Part shown: one piece after another, positions 1,198 to 22,998 of the stretch
Position numbering within the stretch: the stretch's first letter is position 1
Layout: every line of letters begins with the position of its first letter
IMG/VR virus record: IMGVR_UViG_3300050132_000117
Location: 1 to 24,841 of that record
Source of the DNA: a virus
Strand: one strand, 5' to 3'
DNA: 24,841 nt
Made by a program: the position numbers and the translations under genes
The notes under the pieces: generated by a model
Told to the model about the DNA's origin: nothing
Seen by the model: the letters and a program-made list of their open reading frames with translations, nothing else
The model's database searches: none

Positions 1198-1538
1198 ACG
1201 AGCAACAGAAAGAACGATTTGAGGATAAAGCCGCGCGCGATAAAGTCGAGAGCGCAATTGAAGCCATAGTGATGAAGTACACGAATGGGCGAGGCGAACT
1301 ACTTGCGTCGGAAGGTCAGATCGCGTACTCGATTGCGGAGGCATTACCGGAATTAGTTGCGCTCGCTCAACAGGCGCAACCTAGGATGCCGACGAGCGAG
1401 ATGATTGCGCGCTCACATTGGGATTACTGCTCGGACCCGCAACCGCAAACTTGTTGCGCGCCGCCCGGCGGATGCGTGTGCTGGTGCCACAAGGTCGATA
1501 ACCAAGAAATAACGCAAATTATGAGAGACGTTCGCTAA
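1194..1538 (+). CDS. hypothetical protein with Cys-rich putative zinc site
   Basis: A 114-residue protein starting at GTG (1194) inside a GTGA overlap. It has a helical, charged N-terminus, then LAQQAQP (shared with the product of 289-564). A dense Cys/His stretch follows: WDYC, QTCCAPPGGCVCWCHK at about residues 77-99. Five closely spaced cysteines plus His suggest metal binding. The stop overlaps the ATG of the methylase as TAATG. The family is not recognised. Its paralogue-like relation to 289-564 is seen directly in the sequence. Confidence 0.6.
   Translation: MNEQQKERFEDKAARDKVESAIEAIVMKYTNGRGELLASEGQIAYSIAEALPELVALAQQAQPRMPTSEMIARSHWDYCSDPQPQTCCAPPGGCVCWCHKVDNQEITQIMRDVR
1359..1394 (+). 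repeat. copy 2 of a 36-base repeat shared by two early genes
   Basis: This is the partner of 418-453, in the same frame, encoding the LAQQAQP segment of the second Cys-containing small protein. Differences are scattered, so the duplication is not very recent. Confidence 0.5.
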
Positions 1539-2026
1539 TGGCTCTACATGAGCAAAGCGTCGGAGCGACCGACGAATGGTATACGCCCCGGAGGGTATTC
1601 GATGCGTTGGGCTGCACGTTCGACCTGGACGTGTGCGCTGCAAAGCACGGCGACAAAATCCCCGCGCGTCAGCACTTTCCCGACAGTAGCCTCATCCGTT
1701 GCTGGAAAGGCTTCGTTTGGATGAACCCGCCATTCGGCGGACGCAACGGCATTGTGCCTTGGCTTGAGAAATTCTTCAAGCATAACAACGGCATCGCGCT
1801 TGTGCCTGACCGCACATCGGCCCCGTGGTTTCAAACCTTCGCGCCGCGCGCTCACCTGTTGCTATTCGTTTCGCCAAAGCTTCAATTCATCGACGCGGAC
1901 GGCAACCCCGGAAAGTCGCCAGCACAAGGGACGTGCTTGATGGCTCTCGGATCTCAAGGCCAAACCGCGCTCCGACGTGCCGCCAGAAACGGCCTCGGGT
2001 TCATAGCAATCCCACATGAGGCGTAA
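1538..2026 (+). CDS. phage DNA N6-adenine methyltransferase (Dam-type)
   Basis: This 162-residue protein matches the small phage N-6-adenine methyltransferase family (Dam, PF05869). The conserved opening TDEWYTP (residues 11-17) is followed by FDLDVCAA (28-35) and the catalytic motif IV NPPF at 63-66, then the C-terminal LLLFVSPKLQF. It would transfer a methyl group from S-adenosylmethionine to adenine N6 in phage DNA, usually as protection against host restriction or to mark DNA. The recognition site cannot be read from the sequence. No restriction endonuclease is adjacent, so it is an orphan enzyme. The start is coupled to the previous gene by TAATG. Length is typical of the family. Confidence 0.88.
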   Translation: MALHEQSVGATDEWYTPRRVFDALGCTFDLDVCAAKHGDKIPARQHFPDSSLIRCWKGFVWMNPPFGGRNGIVPWLEKFFKHNNGIALVPDRTSAPWFQTFAPRAHLLLFVSPKLQFIDADGNPGKSPAQGTCLMALGSQGQTALRRAARNGLGFIAIPHEA

Positions 2027-3099: not shown

Positions 3100-3389
3100 G
3101 GTGAGCCTTTCGCGTAGACGGGAGCGGCAGCGGGTTCCGGGGATGGCGTGGAGGTCGTCTTGATATCGACCGTCGAGCCGGTGTTCCGATCGAAAACCTG
3201 CACGGTGTTCGTTGCCGTGGGATTCGCCCACGTCCGCACAAAGCCCGCGACGGAGATCACCGCACCCATGCCTGCGGCGTAGAGCACGGCGTGCTTCGGG
3301 TCGATGACCGCCGCCAGCGCCGTGACGCCCGCTAGGCCGCCGCCGGCAACGAACCCGGCGAGCGCGGCGATATCGACCGGAGCCTTCAA
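3096..3389 (-). CDS. holin-like membrane protein, two transmembrane helices
   Basis: A 97-residue protein with two hydrophobic helices, about residues 7-29 (Gly/Ala-rich, ending AAVI) and 34-54 (AVLYAAGMGAVISVAGFV). They are separated by a short DPKH turn and followed by a polar Thr/Pro-rich tail. Size, two helices and location, with start overlapping the endolysin stop by four bases (ATGA), fit a holin that times membrane permeabilisation and lets the endolysin reach the wall. Holins share little sequence, so this rests on topology and context. An XhlA-like gene two positions upstream is a second candidate. Confidence 0.6.
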   Translation of the reverse strand: MKAPVDIAALAGFVAGGGLAGVTALAAVIDPKHAVLYAAGMGAVISVAGFVRTWANPTATNTVQVFDRNTGSTVDIKTTSTPSPEPAAAPVYAKGSP

Positions 3390-3829
3390 TGCGTGTTCCA
3401 GAGCGCGTATTCGGCCGCGCGGCGCCGCACTAGGCCTTCGAGTACCTCACCGTTGCCACCGTGCACGTAGAGGCACAGATGGTTCTCCCACGCATCGGCA
3501 CCCTGGTGCTGGTTGATGAGCGCCAGCGCAGGCGACGATCCTAGCGCGCCAGTGTTGAACTCGAAGCTCACCAGGGCCGAGAACTGGTTCGGCGTCAGCG
3601 TGATCTGGATGAGGCTGGCAACGCGCTTTTCGGCGGTCACGCAGTCCTTGGCGAGCAGCACCTGGGCGTACTCTTTGGTGATCGTCAGCCCTTTGTGCAC
3701 GTCGGGTCCGGTATGGCCGTAGCCGATCGTCCACGGATCACCGCCGGTGCCGGGATCTGGATACGCCGTGAGCGAGAGCCCTTCGAACGATTCAATGAGC
3801 GCGAGTCCTGCCGCGTTGATGACCGGCAC
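3386..3829 (-). CDS. endolysin, GH24 (T4-type) lysozyme
   Basis: A 147-residue muramidase cutting N-acetylmuramic acid to N-acetylglucosamine bonds of peptidoglycan. The T4-lysozyme triad is visible: Glu16 in FEG, Asp25 in YPDPG, Thr34 in WTIGYGH. The spacing Glu to Asp (9) equals that of T4 lysozyme. LVSFEFNTGAL (about 87-97) is the second family hallmark. No signal peptide, SAR anchor or wall-binding domain is seen, so it should need a holin. The start is GTG, directly preceded by an in-frame TAG, so no longer version is possible. The stop overlaps the holin-like gene by ATGA. Confidence 0.9.
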   Translation of the reverse strand: MPVINAAGLALIESFEGLSLTAYPDPGTGGDPWTIGYGHTGPDVHKGLTITKEYAQVLLAKDCVTAEKRVASLIQITLTPNQFSALVSFEFNTGALGSSPALALINQHQGADAWENHLCLYVHGGNGEVLEGLVRRRAAEYALWNTH

Positions 3830-3852
3830 CTACTTGGGCCCGTTGACGAAAT

Positions 3853-4116
3853 TCACGGCCCGAACCCGTGGGGATGGGTGTAGACCTGCCAGAGAATGAA
3901 CCCGAGCGCGCCCACCAGCGTGGTGATAAGCGTGGCTGTAACGGCCCGCAAAATCGCCGCTTGCAGATCAGCCGACTTGTCGAGCATCGTCCGCACTTCT
4001 CGCATATCGGTCTTGATTTGCATGTGATCTGCCTTCATCACCGCCAAATCGACCTCCACTCGCTGAAGGCGCCCGTCCATATCGCGCCGGTCCCAAGTTC
4101 CCGCATCTTGGCTCAT
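3853..4116 (-). CDS. XhlA-like coiled-coil membrane protein, possible lysis helper
   Basis: An 87-residue protein with a charged heptad region at about residues 14-50 (RLQRVEVDLAVMKADH, then TDMREVRTMLDKSADL). One C-terminal transmembrane helix follows (about 57-78, ATLITTLVGALGFILW) and a short tail. This layout matches the XhlA/haemolysin family (PF10779), which assists holin and endolysin in several phages. It lies 23 bases upstream of the endolysin and transcribes with it. No strong ribosome site precedes the ATG at 4116. It could instead be a spanin-like or anti-holin protein. Confidence 0.6.
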   Translation of the reverse strand: MSQDAGTWDRRDMDGRLQRVEVDLAVMKADHMQIKTDMREVRTMLDKSADLQAAILRAVTATLITTLVGALGFILWQVYTHPHGFGP

Positions 4117-4163
4117 GGATTGCAGGTGTTCGGCACGTTAGGAATCGGTCCCGCAACGATGGG

Positions 4164-4192
4164 TTGACTCTGCCGCAGATTGGGTCTAAAAT
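4164..4192 (+). promoter_or_regulatory. sigma70-type promoter of the lipoprotein cassette
   Basis: TTGACT at 4164-4169 and TAAAAT at 4187-4192 are separated by exactly 17 bases and match the consensus -35 and -10 at five of six positions each. Transcription would be expected to begin near 4198-4200, which is the ATG of the first cassette gene, so the mRNA may be leaderless. It is the best promoter I can see in the window. Confidence 0.72.
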
Positions 4193-4198
4193 GCGGCA
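4171..4198. promoter_or_regulatory. inverted repeat, likely operator of the ribbon-helix-helix protein
   Basis: TGCCGCA (4171-4177) and TGCGGCA (4192-4198) form a perfect inverted repeat. Half-site centres are 21 bases apart, two turns of DNA, so both face the same side. The arms flank the -10 element and would occlude it if bound. The adjacent gene encodes an Arc-like protein of a family that commonly binds such sites and represses its own promoter. Confidence 0.6.
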
Positions 4199-4323
4199 TG
4201 GAAGAAATCCGTATCCGGGTCGAAGCGCCCTTGAAAAAAGCCCTCCAAGACGCCGCTGACAAGAATGAACGCTCGCTCAACGGCGAGATCGTCGTTCGCC
4301 TCAAGGCGTCGGTGAAGAAGTGA
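4198..4323 (+). CDS. Arc-like ribbon-helix-helix DNA-binding protein
   Basis: A 41-residue protein. Its first strand, EIRIRVEAPLKKALQDAA, followed by KNERSLNGEIVVRL, is the textbook Arc/MetJ pattern. The strand carries alternating base-contacting residues (R5, R7), helix A follows, then the RSLNxEI turn and helix B. It would dimerise and bind the major groove. The ATG sits five bases after the -10 element, so it may be read from a leaderless mRNA. The stop overlaps the next start as GTGA. Context (first gene, operator-like repeat at its promoter) points to autoregulation of the cassette. Family assignment is firm; the regulatory target is inferred. Confidence 0.82.
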   Translation: MEEIRIRVEAPLKKALQDAADKNERSLNGEIVVRLKASVKK

Positions 4324-4544
4324 CCGCACCCATTGACGCACTCGCGTTCGCCAAAGAGCGCCAGGCCAAACTCGAAGCCGAACATACGGCGCTGCAAACG
4401 CAGTACGCACGCAGCCAGCAATTCCTCAACGAACTCGGCGGCAAAATCGCGCTCGTCCAGGGCCGCATCGCCGAGAACGCAGACACCCTCAAAGCACTCG
4501 AACCTGTGGCCGCAGAGCCACCGAAAGAAGAACCCCCGCAATGA
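4320..4544 (+). CDS. small coiled-coil protein of the lipoprotein cassette
   Basis: A 74-residue protein from GTG at 4320, coupled to the repressor gene by GTGA and to the lipoprotein gene by ATGA. Residues about 8-60 form a continuous, charged helix with heptad spacing of L, A and I (KERQAKLEAEHTALQTQY, then LNELGGKIALVQGRI), a likely coiled coil. The tail is Pro/Glu-rich. No transmembrane segment or signal is present, so it should be cytoplasmic. No function is known to me. Its coupling between regulator and lipoprotein suggests it works with one of them. Confidence 0.65.
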   Translation: MTAPIDALAFAKERQAKLEAEHTALQTQYARSQQFLNELGGKIALVQGRIAENADTLKALEPVAAEPPKEEPPQ

Positions 4545-5569
4545 AATGCCTCCGAACCCTCCCGCTCCTCGCCATGATCGCGCTTGCCGCGTGTGGTGGT
4601 GGCGGTTCAGCAAGTCCAACCCCGCTCCCCGTTATAACGCCAGCACCCACATCATCGCCAACCGCGAAAGCCTCGGCTGCGCCGACCGCTACACCGAACC
4701 CAACACCCACAGCGACTGCTATAGCGACCGCTACAGCAGTCCCACTCGCGCTACATGTCATGGGCGGGGCACCGCTGACTGCGACTGCTGCGCAACTTTC
4801 GACGGCGCGCGCGCGCTCTCGCACGCAGGCACGCATCCTCGCGCAAGGCACGGAGAACGGTCTCCCGATCCTGGTTGAGTCATCCGGTATGGTCGCATCC
4901 TGGGCCGGCGACCAAGCTGTCTGGGTAATGAACGCGCAGACCCAGCAAGACATTCCCGAAACGAGCGGCACGATTACGCCTTCTGGCAATCTGCCGATTT
5001 CGAATCCGGCCTTCGCGCCGCTGTCTTGCATTGGGTCCGTATCGGCCGTTTGTATCGCGCATCCGCTCGGCTGGGAATTTGGTACGTCATCTGCCAACGG
5101 CAAGCCGGTTGGAAAACAGACGATCACCGTCGCGTTCGCCGACGGCACAATAAGTTCGTCACACGCGTACATCTACGACGGCTGGACGATTGCATGCAAT
5201 GCCGGGTTTGCCTACGTCGGCGGCGTGCCAGTCGCGCAAGCGACGAAGGCCACAAGCGACGTGTACGCTGACTGCACGAATAACAATCTCGTCTTCCCGA
5301 TGGGAGCCGTGCTCTATAGCCAGCCCGTACAAGACCAATTCGGTCTGACCCAAACGATCATGCCGACGATCACTGCCGCGATTGCCTTTGTGGTATCGAA
5401 TGTAAATTATCCGATGCCGAGCACGATTGGTGGCCAGGTCTACGGAATCGCCACCCGCGACGGTGGCTTCGCCAAGATCTATCTGACTGCCGGCGCGGGC
5501 CAAGGTTTGCTGTCGTCCGCGAGCGGGATGTCGCTGCACGCGAACGTGGACGGGACGTATCCGTTCTAG
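4541..5569 (+). CDS. phage-encoded lipoprotein (moron candidate)
   Basis: A 342-residue protein with a classic lipoprotein signal: basic start, hydrophobic core, lipobox LAAC with Cys18 as the lipidated residue, then GGGGS. Gly rather than Asp at +2 fits outer-membrane sorting in a diderm. Residues about 24-69 are a Thr/Pro/Ala/Ser-rich linker of low complexity. The remaining 270 residues look like a secreted beta-rich globular domain with a few Cys, not assignable by me. Cell-surface lipoproteins carried by phages often block superinfection or alter host traits, so that is a reasonable guess. It faces against the late genes, and its TAG overlaps the fibre gene's stop. Confidence 0.75.
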   Translation: MKCLRTLPLLAMIALAACGGGGSASPTPLPVITPAPTSSPTAKASAAPTATPNPTPTATAIATATAVPLALHVMGGAPLTATAAQLSTARARSRTQARILAQGTENGLPILVESSGMVASWAGDQAVWVMNAQTQQDIPETSGTITPSGNLPISNPAFAPLSCIGSVSAVCIAHPLGWEFGTSSANGKPVGKQTITVAFADGTISSSHAYIYDGWTIACNAGFAYVGGVPVAQATKATSDVYADCTNNNLVFPMGAVLYSQPVQDQFGLTQTIMPTITAAIAFVVSNVNYPMPSTIGGQVYGIATRDGGFAKIYLTAGAGQGLLSSASGMSLHANVDGTYPF

Positions 5570-6867
5570 GGATGCGCGGCCTTATAGGCCTTGAACTCAG
5601 CGTAGAATTCCTGAAACGCAGCAACGAGAATCGGGGAGAAGCCGTGATAGGCGACTCCCTTTTTCTTGTCGCTGAGCGTCGTTACGAGTGCAGGCAGCAC
5701 TAGTTCTACGTCTTGGGCGATGAAGCCGATGCCCGGTCCGCCGATCGCCTGGTCCTCGTTGACGTGATCGTACGTCACCGGCTTTAGAGCCAAAATAGTA
5801 GCGGTTGCTGCGTCAATCCGTTTGATGTTCGTTTTGATCGATGCATCCGAGATCGTCGTATATGTGGCGCCAGTGACGGCTCCGTAGCCGACGCCTGTAT
5901 TGCGGAACGTGAACTGAGCACTCGTATTGACGTTCCAATCCAATGACCCCGAGTTCGCGGCTCCGCCCATGAATATGACGCCACCTGCATTGCTGCGTTG
6001 CACGACCATATCGCCTGACCCACTTCCGGGGTTCGAAAATGTTCCGCCTGCGAACGTCACAATTTGACCGGCTACGTTTAACTGACCGGCCGACGAATTG
6101 ACCTGCGTGAAGTTCAAAAGGTTTTGCGAAATCGCCGCGTTCGTGATCACGAACGTACCGGATTGCGTATCGGTATTTGGGCTAACGTATAAGCCGTTCG
6201 TGCCGGTGCCAGTCAGAACGAGTCGCGCAGAAGAACCGGAAACCGACAAAACGCTAGTAATCGATTTTGTCGACGTGATGACTTGATTCGCCGTATTCGT
6301 ATCGATAAGATTCTGTGCTTTGACATTATCGCTAAACGTGAATGTGTTTGCCGTTGTGATACCAAAGTCAAGCGAGTGAGCGGCGCTTGTTCCAAAAGCG
6401 TAGAGGCCTAAAACGGATGAGCGGCTCGCCGTGATATCTCCAGCCGTTGAACTTCCCGTACCACCCGCCGAAAAGGCTCCGTTAACCTGGAGTGTTCCAA
6501 TCTTCGTCTGAGCGGTGCTCGATGTATCGATCGCGGTTGCACCAGCCACACTCGCCAGGGCAAAGTTGGCTAGGATGCCGGCGGTGTCGGGCGCGTAGGC
6601 GTAATCATTTGCTAGCCATGTCGCTGCCGCGGTGCCTTCTTGCCCGCGCGTGATCGTGCAGACAGCGCCGGTGCGCGCGGTGACGTAAACGATCTCGAAA
6701 ACGCTCTGCGTGGCGGCGTCATTGAGCACGACGGCCCAGATTTGGCCACCCGTGATTGTCGGCGCGTTCGTCGTCGACGAAAGTGTCATCGTCGTTGCTG
6801 ACGTGGACACGATCGGCGCGGCGAGCGAACTGTTGAAGAAGTTCGAGTAGACGAAGTTCGTGCTCAT
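5566..6867 (-). CDS. tail fibre with C-terminal S74 intramolecular chaperone
   Basis: A 433-residue fibre. The N-terminal 110 residues are probably the virion-attachment part, the middle is a Ser/Thr/Gly-rich repetitive shaft or receptor domain, and the last 94 residues (from Ser340) are a peptidase S74 domain. SDASIKTNI at 340-348 gives the Ser340/Lys345 pair, and the later GFIAQDVE and VAYHGFSPILVAA are hallmarks. The domain trimerises, folds the fibre and is released by self-cleavage before Ser340. Translation is coupled to the upstream gene by ATGA (6864-6867). The central part looks distinctly richer in A/T than the flanking tail genes, suggesting exchange. Confidence 0.88.
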   Translation of the reverse strand: MSTNFVYSNFFNSSLAAPIVSTSATTMTLSSTTNAPTITGGQIWAVVLNDAATQSVFEIVYVTARTGAVCTITRGQEGTAAATWLANDYAYAPDTAGILANFALASVAGATAIDTSSTAQTKIGTLQVNGAFSAGGTGSSTAGDITASRSSVLGLYAFGTSAAHSLDFGITTANTFTFSDNVKAQNLIDTNTANQVITSTKSITSVLSVSGSSARLVLTGTGTNGLYVSPNTDTQSGTFVITNAAISQNLLNFTQVNSSAGQLNVAGQIVTFAGGTFSNPGSGSGDMVVQRSNAGGVIFMGGAANSGSLDWNVNTSAQFTFRNTGVGYGAVTGATYTTISDASIKTNIKRIDAATATILALKPVTYDHVNEDQAIGGPGIGFIAQDVELVLPALVTTLSDKKKGVAYHGFSPILVAAFQEFYAEFKAYKAAHP

Positions 6868-10399: not shown

Positions 10400-11395
10400 T
10401 TACGTGGAGACGCGCGCCTTCGATGAGCCCGGCGGCGTGGTCGGCAAGATGCCTGGAATGTTCGTCACGAACGTCGAGGCGCCGAAGATGGTCGCGAGCA
10501 GTCCCTGCGCCGTCGACCACGTTGAGGACGTAGCGCCGATCGATACGCCGACCTGGGCCATGAGCTTCACCATCGAGGTATTCACGACGTCCTCGACCGC
10601 GCTCTTGAGATCATCGTGCGGGATAATCGCGCGGCCGGCGGCAAGCGCCGATGCGAGCGCGCCGATGCCGACGATGCCGCCGGTCGGCACGATGTGGCTG
10701 ATCGCGTTGCCGTTGCCGTCGACGATCGTTTGGACCGTGCCCGTGGCGTTCGTGAGCGCGTGCGTGATCTTGTTGTTGAGGCCGTCGAGGGTGTGCGAGA
10801 CGGTTGTGGCACCCGTGCCGGCCGCGTTGTGGATCGTCGATGCGATCGATCCGGGCGTTCCGGGCGTCGGCACGGCCACGGTGTGGGTCGCGGTCTGCGC
10901 TGTGTCCGATACGTCCGCGCCGTGGACGCCATTCACCCAGGCCCGATTCGGATCGGGTGAGGCTCCGAAGTTCGCGTTCCCCACTGGCACAAAGACGAGC
11001 GTTGAGAGATTGCCGTAGTCCGTGCCGAGGTCCGAAACGCCCGCGCTCATACCGCTGACGCCACCGTGCGACGTGTCAAGCGCCTGGGTCATCCCCATGT
11101 CGCCGATCTGCGTGGGAGCGCGTAGCCACTGCGGCTCGGCCTTCGGGAGAATCAGCGGCGGCAGGTTGTAGGTGCCCGTCGTGCCGTCCGGTAGCGTGTA
11201 CGGGATATTCACCTGGAACTGGACCTGCACGAACGAGTACCCGAGCGGAGCACCCGTCGCCGGATTGTTCGGGTTGAGCGCGATCACCTGACACGGCAAC
11301 GCCACGCCGCCCTGGGACTGGATGGCCTCGAGTGCGGCGGCCTTTGCGAGTTGCTGAATGTCGCGCTGCAGCCAAAGTTTGGTATCGTCACCCAT
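10400..11395 (-). CDS. baseplate central spike protein (gpV/Gp138-like)
   Basis: A 331-residue protein beginning at the ATG that overlaps the hub stop as TAATG. A longer frame upstream would run through the hub gene and is rejected. The N-terminus is helical (DTKLWLQRDIQQLAKAAALE). Next comes an OB-like region (PCQVIALNP, VQVQFQVNIPY, LPPLILPKAEPQW, IGDMGM at about 78-100), like Mu gp45 and the Gp138 N-terminal domain. Then a Gly/Thr/His-rich part with THTVAVPTPG probably makes the needle, and the C-terminal 80 residues are helical. It would pierce the outer membrane. Coupled within the hub-spike-wedge block. Confidence 0.68.
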   Translation of the reverse strand: MGDDTKLWLQRDIQQLAKAAALEAIQSQGGVALPCQVIALNPNNPATGAPLGYSFVQVQFQVNIPYTLPDGTTGTYNLPPLILPKAEPQWLRAPTQIGDMGMTQALDTSHGGVSGMSAGVSDLGTDYGNLSTLVFVPVGNANFGASPDPNRAWVNGVHGADVSDTAQTATHTVAVPTPGTPGSIASTIHNAAGTGATTVSHTLDGLNNKITHALTNATGTVQTIVDGNGNAISHIVPTGGIVGIGALASALAAGRAIIPHDDLKSAVEDVVNTSMVKLMAQVGVSIGATSSTWSTAQGLLATIFGASTFVTNIPGILPTTPPGSSKARVST

Positions 11396-12486
11396 TATGC
11401 AAATGCCCCCGGAGTGGCCGTGGTCGGCGCGATCTGCGTCGTCGTGAGCGGCAAGCATTCGAACACCGACACCCACGCCGTGGGCCCGGTATCGCGCGAG
11501 TTCCCGATCTGCCGGATCGCGTTGACCTGGAACTGACCCTGGAAGGCCGTCGCGTAGTTGATGTTCGACGGCTGCACGGATTGCCCGGAGCTGCCGACGC
11601 CCGCGAGCGTGACCTGGCCGGGGCCGCCGGGACCTTGCGGCATCGTGACGACGCTGCCGACCTGGATATCGCCGCGCATCACCGTCGTGACCATCATCGA
11701 GGCCGTGTTCACCCACGTCGGCTGGCCGATGAGGTCGGTGTATTTGATCTGCTTCGGCTGCTGCTGCCCGGTCACGTTGAGATTGTCCGAGACGACGATC
11801 GTGTTGTTTATCGGCGTCGAGATCGTCACGCCGGAAAAGCCAGGCGTTGCGGTCGTCGACTTCACCAGCGCGGCGAGCTGCGAGAGCGTATTATGCAGCG
11901 ATTGAACGCTGCGCCCGAGCGTGTACGTCTTGCTTAAATTGAACACAATGCCGACGTTCGGGAACGCCGTGTTCAGCGCAACGGTCAACGCATCTTGAAG
12001 CGATGTTCCCGTGATCCAATTTAAGACGAAGTTCCCCGGCGTGCCATACGTGTAGAGCGACGGGAAAACGAGCAGGTTGAGGTCCATCTCGGTGCCGATC
12101 CAATTTGCCCACGCTTGCCGAATCTGTCCGCTGAGGATCAAGCCTTTCTGCGTCGGGTCCTCAAGCCCAAGGCCGCCCGACATGCCCGCGCTTACGCGCA
12201 CGTTGCGGCCGGTGAACTTCTGCGCTTGCGAGATATTCGATAGGCCGACGCCGTGGATCGTGATCGTCGCGCCATCGGTACCGGCCGCGGCGTTCATGTA
12301 CGAAAAGAAGTCGAATTCAACGAGCAGCGCCGCCGGGTTGAAAACGCCGTTCGTGACCGAGGTGTAGGTCAGCGCGCTCGAGACGCCGCCGATCGTTGAC
12401 GTGCCGCCGGCTGCGGCTGCCGTTGCGGGTGTCGCGAGCGATGAGATTTCTATGCTGTAGAAACGTCCGATGACACGAACCTCCAC
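11395..12486 (-). CDS. baseplate hub protein (gp27/gpP-like)
   Basis: A 363-residue hub, with a long N-terminal beta region around LLVEFDFFSYMN, TITIHGVGLSNISQAQKF and GRNVRVSAGMSGGLGL. I recognise these from the hub family of related myoviruses, placed between the tube-end protein and the spike. It forms the central ring joining tube and spike. The start (12486) lies 37 bases inside the upstream GIY-YIG gene. No other ATG is closer to its recognisable N-terminus (GRFYSIEISSL), so insertion of the endonuclease probably reset the start. The stop is shared with the spike (TAATG). Confidence 0.72.
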   Translation of the reverse strand: MEVRVIGRFYSIEISSLATPATAAAAGGTSTIGGVSSALTYTSVTNGVFNPAALLVEFDFFSYMNAAAGTDGATITIHGVGLSNISQAQKFTGRNVRVSAGMSGGLGLEDPTQKGLILSGQIRQAWANWIGTEMDLNLLVFPSLYTYGTPGNFVLNWITGTSLQDALTVALNTAFPNVGIVFNLSKTYTLGRSVQSLHNTLSQLAALVKSTTATPGFSGVTISTPINNTIVVSDNLNVTGQQQPKQIKYTDLIGQPTWVNTASMMVTTVMRGDIQVGSVVTMPQGPGGPGQVTLAGVGSSGQSVQPSNINYATAFQGQFQVNAIRQIGNSRDTGPTAWVSVFECLPLTTTQIAPTTATPGAFA

Positions 12487-13094
12487 GCATAGCCGTAAGC
12501 GGTTTTGCGGAATTTGCCGCCGTGGCAGCAGGCGCTAATCTTGGATGCCCAGGCGCGGGGATGACCGTTTTCTCTTAGCCAGTCAGCCGCAGCCTTCATT
12601 GCGTCGAACGTCATCCCGTTTGAGCATTCCACACGCCGGGCGGCGTGGTGCTTGGAGCCATTCGGCAACGCAGCCTTCATGGCGGCGATGTGTTCGGGAC
12701 TATGAGGGACGCCCTTGCCCGTGGTCCCGTTGGCCTTTTTGGCGGCCACGGATTTTGCTACTGCTTCGGGCGAGTTCGTGCTACCCCGACGCGGGGCCTC
12801 AGCACAGAACGAGGTGTTGTAGAGCAGCGGCCAGAGCCCGGCATCCGTATGGGCATTAAACTGTGCTTGCTCGTGCGCGTTGAGGTTTTCGACAGCCACG
12901 ACTTCGAGGACTATGAAAACCATCCGCTCAGCGCCGTACTTATTCCAGGCGCGCTGCAGGGGGCGGCAGCGATGATCTCCACGATTCAGCGCATTCCGGT
13001 GCTCTCTCCATCGCTTTTTGAACGATGCTGTCTGCCCGATGTACTTCTTGCCGCTTGGCGATACGATTGCGTAAATGCCGCAGTCCGGGTTCAT
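12450..13094 (-). CDS. free-standing GIY-YIG homing endonuclease with NUMOD3-type motif
   Basis: A 214-residue nuclease. The GIY-YIG domain shows GIY at 6-8, KYIG at 17-20, Arg28, His32 and catalytic Glu75 in HEQAQFNAH. A SPEAVAKSVAAKK and SPEHIAAMKAAL pair (about 108-141) looks like NUMOD3 DNA-binding repeats. The C-terminal SNGMTFDAMKAAADWL is like NUMOD1/DUF-type specificity helices of such enzymes, ending in GYAWRFV. It should cut alleles lacking the insertion and copy itself in. It is not inside an intron, since both neighbours are intact. It starts 38 bases after the 91-residue gene and overlaps the hub gene by 37 bases. A TATAAT box sits six bases before its ATG. Confidence 0.88.
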   Translation of the reverse strand: MNPDCGIYAIVSPSGKKYIGQTASFKKRWREHRNALNRGDHRCRPLQRAWNKYGAERMVFIVLEVVAVENLNAHEQAQFNAHTDAGLWPLLYNTSFCAEAPRRGSTNSPEAVAKSVAAKKANGTTGKGVPHSPEHIAAMKAALPNGSKHHAARRVECSNGMTFDAMKAAADWLRENGHPRAWASKISACCHGGKFRKTAYGYAWRFVSSDVSTA

Positions 13095-16722: not shown

Positions 16723-17211
16723 TTAGACCAGGGTAGTTAGCACACCGGTCAGCGAGCCCCACATCGAGGAGTTCACCGGGAAGCCGCCGCTCACGGTCAC
16801 GGACACGACGGGATCCGTGCCGTCGAAGGCGCCGGGGTCGAAGTCGGTGATCGAGCAATTCAGCACCGAGAGCGCCGAGAACACGGTCGAGTCGGAGAAG
16901 ATTTGCACGGTGCCGAGCGTGGCCTGCGTTTGCGCCTGCGTGATCCACAGATTCGCGAGCGACTGCGATCGCAGCAGCGAGACCGTCATGTGCCCCATCA
17001 CGTAGGGCTCGGGGCTGTTCACGAAGAGCGTTGCCGTGCCGATCTGCTGCACGAACGGGCTGTCGAGCGTGACTTTGCACATGCTCTTGCCCATGTAGCT
17101 CGCGTTAACCGAAAGCGCCGGGAAGCTCGCCACAACGAGATGCGTGGCAACCTTGTTGAGATTGCCCTGCGTGATGTTCGGAGCCAGCCCCGGTAGGCCT
17201 AAGAATGCCAT
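16723..17211 (-). CDS. tail tube protein
   Basis: A 162-residue protein downstream of the sheath, of usual tube size. It is beta-rich: ALSVNASYMGKSMCKVTLD, ATLFVNSPEPYVMGHMTVSL, then a helix LANLWITQAQTQATLG and strands CSITDFDPGAFDGTDPVVSV ending in SGGFPVN. Polymerises into the inner tube. The start ATG overlaps the stop of the inserted HNH gene (TAATG), a relation presumably present between sheath and tube before insertion. A terminator-like hairpin follows. Confidence 0.72.
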   Translation of the reverse strand: MAFLGLPGLAPNITQGNLNKVATHLVVASFPALSVNASYMGKSMCKVTLDSPFVQQIGTATLFVNSPEPYVMGHMTVSLLRSQSLANLWITQAQTQATLGTVQIFSDSTVFSALSVLNCSITDFDPGAFDGTDPVVSVTVSGGFPVNSSMWGSLTGVLTTLV

Positions 17212-17858
17212 TATGCGGTCTCCTCTGCTAATGACTTAGCTTCGTGATTTTCGAGATAGCGCAGCATTCCGCGCAACACGTCTTGGTTATCGTTTACCAT
17301 GCCGAGCGCGGTGTTGCAGTGAAGGCACAATAGGCCGCGCACCGCTCCCGTTTCGTGATCATGGTCGACCGCTGGTGATCCACGCCACTTTGCCTCGGCG
17401 TTGAACTCATCCCGGCAAATCGCGCACTGGTTACCCTGTGATTCAAGAAGCGTGAAATACTCTTGCTTGGTAAGACCGTATTTCCGCATCCGCGCACAGA
17501 GAAGGCATACATTTTGCAAGCCTCCCTTTTCTCCATGATTTTTCGAAAAGTGAGATGCCGGAAGAGTCTCTTTGCAACATGAACAACGAGCCTCGGTTAA
17601 CGCTTGTAGTTCGCCGCGTAGGAAGGCTGCGCGGTTTTTATCGTTCCAGGCCTTCCGGGACGCCACTTGGCACGAACGACAGCGAGCGACACGCCCACGA
17701 ATTTCCGTGTTCGTGCGGAAGAACTCTGATAACGGCAGCGATTGCTGACACTTCGTGCATCGTTTTAATCCAGTGCGATCTTCCTCCGCGATGCGTTCAG
17801 CCCGACGCTTAGCATGGTGCGCCGTCATGGCGAGACTTACGGCTGGTCTTTTAGCCAT
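17211..17858 (-). CDS. endonuclease VII-type HNH nuclease with extra zinc ribbons
   Basis: A 215-residue nuclease between sheath and tube. The C-terminal recombination endonuclease VII domain (PF02945) shows Cys145-x2-Cys148, the catalytic region VDHDHETG (Asp165, His166, His168) and Cys178-x2-Cys181 followed by Asn182. Upstream lie two more four-Cys sets: 34/37/60/63 and 92 (or 94)/95/118/121, each looking like a treble-clef or zinc ribbon. As in T4, such enzymes resolve branched DNA, but small copies in virion modules usually act as homing nucleases. It starts three bases after the sheath stop. ATG 17828 (residue 11) is an alternative start. Confidence 0.85.
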   Translation of the reverse strand: MAKRPAVSLAMTAHHAKRRAERIAEEDRTGLKRCTKCQQSLPLSEFFRTNTEIRGRVARCRSCQVASRKAWNDKNRAAFLRGELQALTEARCSCCKETLPASHFSKNHGEKGGLQNVCLLCARMRKYGLTKQEYFTLLESQGNQCAICRDEFNAEAKWRGSPAVDHDHETGAVRGLLCLHCNTALGMVNDNQDVLRGMLRYLENHEAKSLAEETA

Positions 17859-20382: not shown

Positions 20383-21437
20383 GTCACGGTCCCCACGGCA
20401 CTTACGGTTTGGTCATCCTGCAGAATGTTGGCGATCCCGATCGCGTTGACGCCGCCGTTCACCTGGACCGACATGGCCAGCACGCTCAGGATGAGCCGGT
20501 AGGCCGCAGCGTTCGCCGTGCCCTGGTAATAGTTCGCCTGGAACGTGAGGCTCTTTTTCATGGCCAGCACGTTGATCTCGTTCTGCGTGCGCTTCTCATC
20601 TTGCACCGCCGGCGAGTCCGCGAAGCCGAACGTGGGCGTCTCGCCGGGCCCGACCAGCGAGTAGTTGTAGAGCGTCGAGTAATACTGCCACACCATCGCG
20701 TTGGTGAAGCCGTACATGATGAGCCGCACCTCGTCCCGCGCGAGTTGGCCAGCCGAGAATTGGTAGAACCCGGTGCCGCCGAGCTGCTCGGACGACTGCT
20801 GGAAGAACGGCGCCGCCTGTAGCGCAGCGGTGCGGCCGGGCTCGACGTGCGCGACGATATACGGCGGCGTTAGGTTATCTGGTACCAGAAAACTCGGGTA
20901 CACGGGCACGATCGTCTGGCCCACCGTGGTGAGGAGCAGCCAGATCGGCAGCGAGTTCGAGACGATCGGCCCGACCGGCAGTTGCGCCGCGCTCGAGATG
21001 ATCTGCGTCTGCATCGCCGGATACACCGCATGGCCCGAGTAGTGCCAGAGCTGCGCCTCTTCGTAGAACCGGCCACGCTTGGAGAACGCGATCTGCAGCG
21101 CCGAGCCGTCCGGGAACGGCCACGAACCGATCAGCAGCGTGGTGGGTGAGATCGAATTGAACGTCTCGACCTCTTCCTCAGAGGTGAAGATGAAGTTGTT
21201 GATCCCGATGTTTTCGTCGAGTTCTTGCACGCTGTCGGTCGAGAAGTGCAGCGAGCCCTTCGCCTTTTGCGACACGCCGTTTGCCACCCAAAATACACTC
21301 GAATCTGGCGCTAACGCCACCTTGGTGTAACTTTGAAATGTAACAACTTGGTCAGCCGAAAGAACATCAAGCCCGGAATCAAGCGCAGCTTTTAATTGAC
21401 TTCCGCCAGTTGAGGCGGCTTCAGCGGCTGACGGCAT
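20379..21437 (-). CDS. conserved myovirus tail-module protein (352 residues)
   Basis: I recognise the layout: LSADQVVTFQSYTKVAL and VFWVANG near the start, KGSLHFSTDSVQELDENIGIN, FTSEEEVETFNSI, WHYSGHAVYPAMQTQII, SNSLPIWLLL, YPSFLVPDNLTPPY and DEKRTQNEINVLAMKKSL. This marks a conserved protein in the tail module of related myoviruses, without a known role. The start overlaps the GIY-YIG gene by 17 bases. The first 50 codons (21285-21437) have markedly more A/T than the rest. The start may have been reset by insertion of the nuclease. Confidence 0.75.
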   Translation of the reverse strand: MPSAAEAASTGGSQLKAALDSGLDVLSADQVVTFQSYTKVALAPDSSVFWVANGVSQKAKGSLHFSTDSVQELDENIGINNFIFTSEEEVETFNSISPTTLLIGSWPFPDGSALQIAFSKRGRFYEEAQLWHYSGHAVYPAMQTQIISSAAQLPVGPIVSNSLPIWLLLTTVGQTIVPVYPSFLVPDNLTPPYIVAHVEPGRTAALQAAPFFQQSSEQLGGTGFYQFSAGQLARDEVRLIMYGFTNAMVWQYYSTLYNYSLVGPGETPTFGFADSPAVQDEKRTQNEINVLAMKKSLTFQANYYQGTANAAAYRLILSVLAMSVQVNGGVNAIGIANILQDDQTVSAVGTVT

Positions 21438-22068
21438 TTGTGACTTTCAAGGCAGCGTGCTTCGCTCTCACCGTTGCAGATCGCTTAGCGATAGATTCCG
21501 GGGACCACTTCCGACCGGTGAGAGATATGCTTAATGCTCTCCGGGTCCGCTCGCTCATAACGCGGCCTTTTTGAGCCTCGCTAAATCGTGCGACTTGCTC
21601 AGGAGTTCGCTTCTGCCCCTTATTGGCGGCAGCGGTTTTGGCGATTGCCTCCGGGGACCGTTTCATGCCGATGCGCTTAGCGGTGCGCTTGGCTATCGCC
21701 TCAGCAGGTTGCGGAATTCCACGACGCTTTGAGGCGCGCTTCTCGATGGACTCGGGGGATTGAATGTGACCAGCCATTCCTTCGCCGCCATCGGTAAAAT
21801 TGACCAATGGGCCGATGCCTTTATCGGCACGGCCAAGAGCAGCGATTAAGGCCTTTTCGGTTTTGATCGCCTCTCCGTTTGTCAGGCCTGCTTGAGCCTT
21901 CCAGATCGGAAGTTCTCCATGCTTAGCGTAAAGACGAGCGAGATGGCTGTTGTGGGAGTCTCCACGCGCATGCCGATTTACTCGCTGTCCCCGGCCCTTG
22001 CCGACGTAGCATGGTTCACCGTTTGGGCGGAAGATGACGTAGACATAATAGTCGCTGTGCTCAGGCAC
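21421..22068 (-). CDS. free-standing GIY-YIG homing endonuclease with NUMOD3 array
   Basis: A 215-residue nuclease from GTG 22068 (8-base overlap with the upstream gene). The GIY-YIG core: YVY at 8-10, CYVG at 20-23, GKGRGQR, Arg29, His33, and an Ile-Lys-Thr-Glu-Lys segment with the likely catalytic Glu near residue 70. From residue 104 on there are six tandem NUMOD3-like units, such as SPESIEKRASKRRG, SPEAIAKTAAANKG and TPEQVARFSEAQKG. They probably wrap the target DNA. The gene is inserted between a neck protein and the 352-residue tail protein; no intron borders are seen. Confidence 0.87.
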   Translation of the reverse strand: MPEHSDYYVYVIFRPNGEPCYVGKGRGQRVNRHARGDSHNSHLARLYAKHGELPIWKAQAGLTNGEAIKTEKALIAALGRADKGIGPLVNFTDGGEGMAGHIQSPESIEKRASKRRGIPQPAEAIAKRTAKRIGMKRSPEAIAKTAAANKGQKRTPEQVARFSEAQKGRVMSERTRRALSISLTGRKWSPESIAKRSATVRAKHAALKVTNAVSR

Positions 22069-22594
22069 TGTACGTGGTCCACGCGCGGAAGCTGCTGGCG
22101 TAGAGGCCCGTATCCACGAAGTCCGGACGTGCCTTTTTGCCTTTGGTGTAGCCGGATTTCGTGCGCTTGGTCTTGCCCGCTTGCGCCGCGGCCGAGAGGT
22201 TCGGGCCGCCCGAAATACGCTTCATCTCGCCGGCGAAGAGAAACGTGCGGAAGGCGTTCTCGATCTTCTGATCGGCGCCGTAGGTGAACGTGCCTGACTG
22301 CTCGCTGGTAACGACGCGCTTCTTGTTCATGCCCGCAACCTTATGGCTGGCCGAACCGCTGCGTCCGCTGGTATCGATCGCGCCGCCGGTGCTCACCAGC
22401 GTCTGGATCGAGTTCGCCATATCGTCGGCGAGCCACTGAGCGATCTTGTCCTGATAGAGCGTGAAGAACGTCCCCATGACGGCGTAGTTCGCCTCGAGGA
22501 AGCCCGCGACGTCGGCCGTGCTCGTTTCCTTGCCGCCGTTCGAAGCGTCCGAATAGGCCACATCGAGCACGCCAAGGTTCAGCGTGAGACTCAC
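22061..22594 (-). CDS. head-tail/neck protein, unknown subfamily
   Basis: A 177-residue protein between a connector-type gene and tail genes. LEANYAVMGTFFTLYQDKIAQWLADDMANSI (about 33-63) is a helical region, then THE central part carries KKRVVTSEQSGTF, FRTFLFAGEMKRI, and the C-terminus is DTGLYASSFRAW, a pattern (DTG-x-Y-x-x-S) seen in tail completion/minor tail proteins (HK97 gp10-like). I assign it as a neck or tail-completion protein. The GTG start lies in a GTGA overlap with the inserted HNH gene. Confidence 0.55.
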   Translation of the reverse strand: MSLTLNLGVLDVAYSDASNGGKETSTADVAGFLEANYAVMGTFFTLYQDKIAQWLADDMANSIQTLVSTGGAIDTSGRSGSASHKVAGMNKKRVVTSEQSGTFTYGADQKIENAFRTFLFAGEMKRISGGPNLSAAAQAGKTKRTKSGYTKGKKARPDFVDTGLYASSFRAWTTYSA

Positions 22595-22998
22595 CGTTTG
22601 CGGCGTCGATCATTGGCGCAGGTCCGACATTCTCGAACACCGCTCTTGCGCACGTTAAATTCATGCCAGCGAATGCAGAGCACTTTTGCAGCGTTAGCTG
22701 CCGGTAAAGTCTGTCCGCGCATCGTGTTCTCGCGCTGTGTCACAGCCTCAAGATGGCGCGGATTGACGCACCCGCGATTGCGGCATAGATGGTCGATATG
22801 CAAGCCATCCGGAATTGGACCGACGAGATTCGCGTAGGCCCAGCGGTGCGCTAAGAAAGGGCGCTGGCCGCGAGGTCCATCGGCGAACTGGCCGTACCCG
22901 TTTTGCATCTTGGATGCGCGCCACTCCCAGCAGCCGCCAGGAATGATATCGACCTTCCGCATGAAGCGGTCAAGCACTGCGACAGGGATCAAATGCAT
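22591..22998 (-). CDS. HNH_3-type homing endonuclease
   Basis: A 135-residue nuclease. GGCWEWRASKMQNGYGQF (about 21-38), then HRWAYANLVGPIPDGLHIDHLC and NPRHLEAVT give the HNH_3 motif with His70 after Asp69, Asn79 and His82; Cys72 and Cys77 are probable structural ligands. The C-terminus has CIRWHEFNVRK and CRTCANDRRRK, resembling a second zinc knuckle. It inserts between a connector and the neck protein: its ATG overlaps the upstream TAA (TAATG) and its TGA overlaps the next GTG, so it is translated with the operon. Probably a mobile, free-standing nuclease. Confidence 0.85.
   Translation of the reverse strand: MHLIPVAVLDRFMRKVDIIPGGCWEWRASKMQNGYGQFADGPRGQRPFLAHRWAYANLVGPIPDGLHIDHLCRNRGCVNPRHLEAVTQRENTMRGQTLPAANAAKVLCIRWHEFNVRKSGVRECRTCANDRRRKR

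Follow-up and report, generated by a model that had tools for sequence, protein, structure and literature searches.

What is a group of three plus-strand genes doing among the minus-strand late genes of a phage? The question arises from a 24.8-kb viral record (24,841 nucleotides, the whole stretch of DNA that was analysed, called the window here). The window derives from a contractile-tailed phage, a myovirus, and all of its late genes are on the minus strand. The tail proteins are distantly related to those of Shewanella phage vB_Sb_QDWS, Rac-SA53, Certevirus and others, with ~35-54% identity for the best conserved. The three genes, referred to as the trio, are sandwiched in opposed orientation between a minus-strand pair of lysozyme and holin-like genes and a minus-strand fibre gene. 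The locus has the following features:

3386-3829, minus strand: phage lysozyme (endolysin), flanking gene (Pfam Phage_lysozyme, 2.8e-33)
3853-4116, minus strand: small holin-like membrane protein with a tail anchor; divergent neighbour (weak PHROG holin match, 0.007)
4164-4192, plus strand: sigma-70-like promoter TTGACT-17 nt-TAAAAT (10/12 consensus matches)
4171-4198, no strand assigned: candidate operator; a perfect inverted repeat, TGCCGCA-14 nt-TGCGGCA, whose arms lie on either side of the -10 box and which reaches the start codon
4198-4323, plus strand: gene 1, 41-residue Arc-type ribbon-helix-helix repressor (Pfam Arc, PHROGs, PDB alignment)
4320-4544, plus strand: gene 2, 74-residue acidic coiled coil with a Pro-rich tail (GTGA overlap, heptad pattern)
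4541-5569, plus strand: gene 3, 342-residue lipoprotein (lipobox, linker, ATGA overlap)
5566-6867, minus strand: tail fibre with an S74 chaperone domain, convergent flanking gene (Peptidase_S74, 1.6e-12)

The trio is likely a self-regulated accessory operon, or moron, that carries an envelope lipoprotein.

Layout and expression signals of the trio

The genes of the trio are coupled by 4-base overlaps, GTGA at the GTG start of gene 2 and ATGA at the start of gene 3. The stop codons of gene 3 and the fibre gene overlap in CTAG. Scored with a codon-usage model derived from the window's late genes, the frames of the trio reach +0.11, +0.19 and +0.10 per codon, and the other five frames are negative. 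The part of gene 3 encoding its linker does not have a positive bias by itself, as expected of a low-complexity linker. A basic gene finder, trained on this contig, recovered all three genes, with the 5' end of gene 3 truncated. The third-position G+C content of the trio, 0.67-0.71, is below that of most genes for core structural proteins (0.80-0.88) and similar to that of the adjoining genes for the fibre, the DUF2612-type protein and baseplate J (0.65-0.71). Coordinates, overlaps and codon bias agree with the initial annotation, which described a plus-strand operon of three coupled genes between minus-strand lysis and fibre genes.

Antisense open reading frames are frequent at 61% G+C, and the trio might consist of chance reading frames opposite the late transcript. 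None of 500 dinucleotide shuffles yielded a 342-codon reading frame; however, the longest reached 332 codons, and the length of gene 3 alone is therefore modest evidence. Chance reading frames are nevertheless an exceedingly improbable explanation, since the codon bias in the frames of the trio, the Arc match, the lipobox, the two 4-nt overlaps and the promoter all concur.

The promoter just 5' of gene 1 is the sole sigma-70-like match in positions 3300-6000 (2.7 kb); within the first 20 kb it ranks above two further sites, each with 9/12 consensus matches. The trio had been proposed to possess its own promoter, and the sequence contains a promoter-like site independent of the neighbouring operons, as befits a moron. 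A moron may also be recognized by a terminator of its own, and no terminator-like site was found on the plus strand after position 5569. The -10 box ends 5 nt upstream of the gene 1 ATG (4198), and no Shine-Dalgarno sequence is visible before this codon, which points to a leaderless mRNA for gene 1. Shuffling the 84-bp region gave an arm as long as that of the inverted repeat, 7 bp, in 4.2% of cases, so that the role of the repeat as an operator is suggestive only, marginally above chance.

Small proteins resembling the holin-like product occupy the same place in related phages. Elsewhere in the window, a Dam-type N6-adenine methyltransferase is encoded among the left-end plus-strand genes (1538-2026, plus strand). 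A GIY-YIG gene (12450-13094, minus strand) lies amid the late structural genes, together with another GIY-YIG-like and two HNH-like genes identified by eye (21421-22068, 17211-17858 and 22591-22998, minus strand). These are probable homing endonucleases. Rfam and tRNA scans gave no matches.

Products of the three genes

The product of gene 1 is essentially a bare ribbon-helix-helix (RHH). It matches Pfam Arc (PF03869; 1.6e-4, 21.9 bits) above the gathering cut-off of 20.4, which upholds its earlier designation as an Arc-like regulator. It also matches several phage Arc-like repressor PHROGs, and Arc is its top sequence match in the PDB (E 0.014). We infer that the protein binds DNA and represses its own promoter at the candidate 7-bp inverted repeat. 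Another 41-residue RHH-like gene is present in a relative (L155, G151; 10694-10819, minus strand) near terminase-side genes, at a position unrelated to that of the trio.

The product of gene 2 has one clear heptad register, with hydrophobic residues at 0.69 of the a/d positions versus 0.31 elsewhere. No homologues were identified in Pfam, PHROGs, NCBIfam, PADLOC, 50,697 phages or 149 genomes of the phylum of the Eremiobacterota metagenome-assembled genome (MAG) described below, and a close-relative pattern search of IMG/VR found no close relative. Our guess is that the protein stays in the cytoplasm and works there with a partner, which might be the gene 1 repressor. RHH proteins are commonly antitoxins, and genes 1 and 2 are small and overlapping, so that the pair could form a toxin-antitoxin module followed by an unrelated lipoprotein gene. 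However, the 41 residues of gene 1 accommodate the RHH fold without a spare toxin-binding tail. Gene 2 encodes a soluble acidic coiled coil, no toxin-family partner was found in the trio with Pfam, NCBIfam and PADLOC, and no PADLOC match carried weight. A toxin-antitoxin module is very unlikely.

The product of gene 3 is composed of a short signal peptide with a lipobox LAAC and Cys18 (MKCLRTLPLLAMIALAAC, read from the translation), an Ala/Pro/Thr-rich linker (residues about 23-70), and an outer domain of ~270 residues (about 73-342) containing cysteines 163, 171, 219 and 245. The lipobox lipoprotein reported previously is present in the translation, and its features are consistent with display in the envelope or at the cell surface. 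No relative of the outer domain was found in Pfam, PHROGs, NCBIfam, PADLOC or the PDB, nor among 50,697 phages, plasmids and 26 related phage records. A close-relative pattern search of IMG/VR viral contigs found no close relative, and searches of the 149 phylum genomes with the full and core sequences yielded none. Weak matches of the core to loci L134 and L046 were dismissed as apparent chance, low-complexity alignments. The N-terminal part of the protein matches lipoproteins in 65 of the 149 genomes (E<=0.01), nearly all in the signal peptide and linker, and the resemblance is one of the composition of these segments. AlphaFold predictions without homologues have pLDDT values of 33 for the whole protein and 32 for the core, with pTM of about 0.2, and are beta-rich at most. 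Judged by sequence, the domain is a true orphan within the libraries searched. The initial annotation had stated that the outer domain and the coiled coil match nothing familiar, and the profile and sequence searches gave no relative of either.

The location of gene 3 between lysis and fibre genes, its lipobox and its Pro-rich linker would suit a part of the lysis machinery or the virion, such as an outer-membrane spanin-like or fibre-associated lipoprotein. Outer-membrane spanins, however, are short lipoproteins co-encoded with lysis genes. Gene 3 encodes 342 residues on the strand opposite all lysis and tail genes, has its own promoter, and matches no spanin or tail profile, which makes a role in lysis or the virion highly improbable.

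The fibre-lysis junction, host and lifestyle

Alignment of the baseplate J protein gathered 80 viral and 21 genomic loci for comparison. In L010-L012, which are near relatives, the interval from fibre to lysis contains no opposed gene. At the same junction, other relatives have opposite-strand genes for Acyl_transf_3 O-acyltransferases (L002, L029, L078 and L050), an MBOAT acyltransferase (L047), a 2OG oxygenase with an SGNH lipoprotein (L086), SGNH lipoproteins (L025/L026 and L095), or secreted proteins (L015, L016 and L092). An opposite-strand gene for at least 60 residues is positioned between baseplate J and lysin in 12 of the 20 relatives whose lysin was recognized via simple motifs, a count that includes an apparent IS insertion (L017) and one phage twice (L025/L026). 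Some of these cassettes start with a regulator. In L016, an Arc-type gene is followed by Bro-N antirepressor genes, and a double-RHH gene is divergent. In L025 and L015, an HTH-like phrog_20491 regulator precedes the envelope protein.

The presence of opposed cargo at this site in some relatives, its absence from others and its differing identity are characteristic of morons. The moron character of the trio, proposed earlier, gains support by analogy from the other opposite-strand envelope genes, and the comparison of the site across related phages supports it well. The proposal that the trio forms a unit, an undescribed conserved system, did not hold in the related phages. None of the relatives searched carries the trio, an outcome that the initial annotation had itself named as refuting, and, as no relative of the outer domain or the coiled coil was found, it is not a conserved unit. 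On this comparison, the junction is conserved as a cargo site although the trio itself is not. It is doubtful that the 270-residue domain represents a new family that constitutes, with the coiled coil, an undescribed exclusion or receptor-masking system of Eremiobacterota viruses.

Two further observations concern genes near the junction. In L025 (16536-17659, minus strand) and L095 (16861-17868), the phrog_20491 regulator overlaps, in another frame, the gene of an SGNH lipoprotein with an LAAC-GG lipobox that has no clear ATG, GTG or TTG start near the lipobox. Perhaps its translation starts at an unusual codon or involves a frameshift. An apparent signal peptide opens tail-fibre-like proteins of L010 (13632-15671), L016 (18513-20327), L024 (13395-14963), L029 (13494-15812), L078 (13556-15259) and L086 (13636-14364). 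A signal peptide is odd here, as proteins of the virion are assembled in the cytoplasm.

Among genomes, the baseplate protein has its best relatives on contigs of two MAGs, one of a 'bacterium' (65%) and one of Ca. Eremiobacterota (63%), and the former was returned as a member of the phylum of the latter. The endolysin gene has 71-77% DNA identity to lysozyme genes on contigs of the same phylum. No convincing spacer match provided a link to a host. Based on the baseplate relatives, the endolysin matches and the style of the lipoprotein, the host is probably a member of Eremiobacterota. These lines of evidence are indirect, since the phage contigs of the MAGs may be binned by composition. One lysozyme gene matching the window endolysin (L179, G126:C20, 9797-10231) lies amid apparent hopanoid-pathway genes of an 85-kb contig, perhaps as a domesticated endolysin. 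Another, accompanied by a similar small membrane gene, is present on a contig of the same phylum (L180, G070:C10, 1118-11451) that, with a packaging ATPase and a 377-residue protein of capsid size recognized by eye, resembles a tectivirus-like phage lacking a tail.

No tyrosine integrase was found in the four closest records, two of which are ~50 kb long, and lysogenic conversion by the trio is therefore unproven. A Pfam scan of 52 non-structural genes of the two ~50-kb relatives, which include replication, methylase and recombination genes, detected no integrase; 8 of the 23 relatives searched have one. T5 is a lytic phage and yet has the lipoprotein Llp. Exclusion without lysogeny is thus possible, which matters here because the closest records lack a tyrosine integrase.

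Proposed function and comparison with known systems

We hypothesize that the trio is an accessory operon inserted where the fibre and lysis genes of a myovirus meet, in opposition to its late genes. Host sigma-70 RNA polymerase would read it from its own promoter, independently of late transcription. The Arc-type protein would be made first and repress its promoter via the inverted repeat at the -10 box, limiting expression to a short period or a low level. The lipoprotein would be exported, lipidated at Cys18 and tethered in the envelope by its long linker, which would enable the probably disulphide-bonded domain to reach the cell wall or surface. There it may mask or jam the receptor or another entry step of related phages, in a lysogen or during early lytic growth. 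This whole explanation, a moron with an exclusion lipoprotein, is put forward tentatively, with confidence close to even and below it. By analogy, superinfection exclusion or receptor inactivation is the likeliest function of gene 3, at somewhat less than even confidence.

The same self-regulated moron could instead serve the host or infected cell, with the lipoprotein acting in adhesion, nutrient binding, or contact with the cell wall or matrix. The Ala/Pro/Thr-rich linker and Cys-containing domain are stylistically like lipoproteins of the host phylum, and the surface-modifying enzymes encoded at the junction in neighbouring phages need not act on phages. However, O-acyltransferases, as found at the junction, classically alter receptors, and the domain has no homologue in the 149 host-phylum genomes. 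We consider such a service to the cell rather unlikely.

The proposed exclusion function has its closest counterparts in phage lipoproteins. Llp of T5 attaches to FhuA from the periplasmic side and blocks T5 (PMC9586334), and Ltp of TP-J34 is a phage exclusion lipoprotein of 142 residues (PMC3952083). Llp, Ltp and Cor are, like the gene 3 product, phage-encoded lipoproteins with a signal peptide and a Cys anchor (PMC9586334, PMC3952083). In gene 3 the signal peptide with lipobox is shared with these exclusion proteins, whereas Pfam, PHROG, NCBIfam and PADLOC searches revealed no family similarity of weight to Llp, Cor or Ltp, and the domain showed no homology to any exclusion protein. The three are also much smaller, which counts against exclusion; the domain of gene 3 is far larger than theirs and is carried on a long linker. 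The opposite-strand lipoproteins of L025/L026, L095 and L086 share with gene 3 the junction and a linker rich in Pro, Ala, Ser and Thr, and that of L025 is preceded by an overlapping regulator. Nevertheless, the L025/L026/L095 cassettes have an HTH-like regulator, an outer domain that is a GDSL/SGNH hydrolase, and no coiled-coil gene.

The immI region of P22 is a highly variable island inside the late operon that contains arc, mnt, ant and sieA and is largely unread by the late message (PMC8022706). The trio resembles it in having an Arc-type repressor in an island among late genes, and the P22 island also has an exclusion gene. In contrast to immI, the trio lacks ant, mnt and sieA, has all three genes on one strand, and encodes a lipoprotein as its envelope protein. 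The prophage phi437 of Paraburkholderia terrae BS437 is mitomycin-inducible, and its genes are ordered lysozyme (minus strand), Arc-domain protein (minus), Arc, Ant, Roi and a 226-residue protein (plus), and fibre (minus) (PMC5567305). The authors named the Arc gene as the moron of the phage (PMC5567305). L016 has the layout of phi437. Both phi437 orf63-67 and L016 share with the trio an opposite-strand, Arc-headed operon in the lysozyme-fibre interval of a myovirus; however, Ant, Roi, the 226-residue protein and the divergent second Arc-domain gene orf63 of phi437 are all absent from the trio.

These likenesses raise the alternative of an immI-like switch, in which the Arc-type protein and an antirepressor-like coiled coil tune the choice between lysis and lysogeny, and the lipoprotein rides along like SieA of P22. 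The Arc-headed operons of L016 and phi437 carry real antirepressors at the same junction. However, Pfam and PHROGs detected no antirepressor domain in the product of gene 2 or gene 3, the trio has no Ant, KilA-N or Bro-N and hence no Ant under Arc/Mnt control as in P22, and the close relatives lack an integrase. An immI-like switch is quite unlikely.

A moron with an envelope lipoprotein remains the preferred reading of the trio. The fibre-lysis junction in this group of myoviruses is a place of exchange for envelope-altering cassettes that are opposed to the late genes and in some cases regulate themselves, and it provides a simple address for finding more exclusion and surface-conversion genes, uncultured phyla included. 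The immI region of P22, the moron of phi437 and the trio are comparable in their arrangement: a repressor comes first and envelope cargo next, opposing the late stream.
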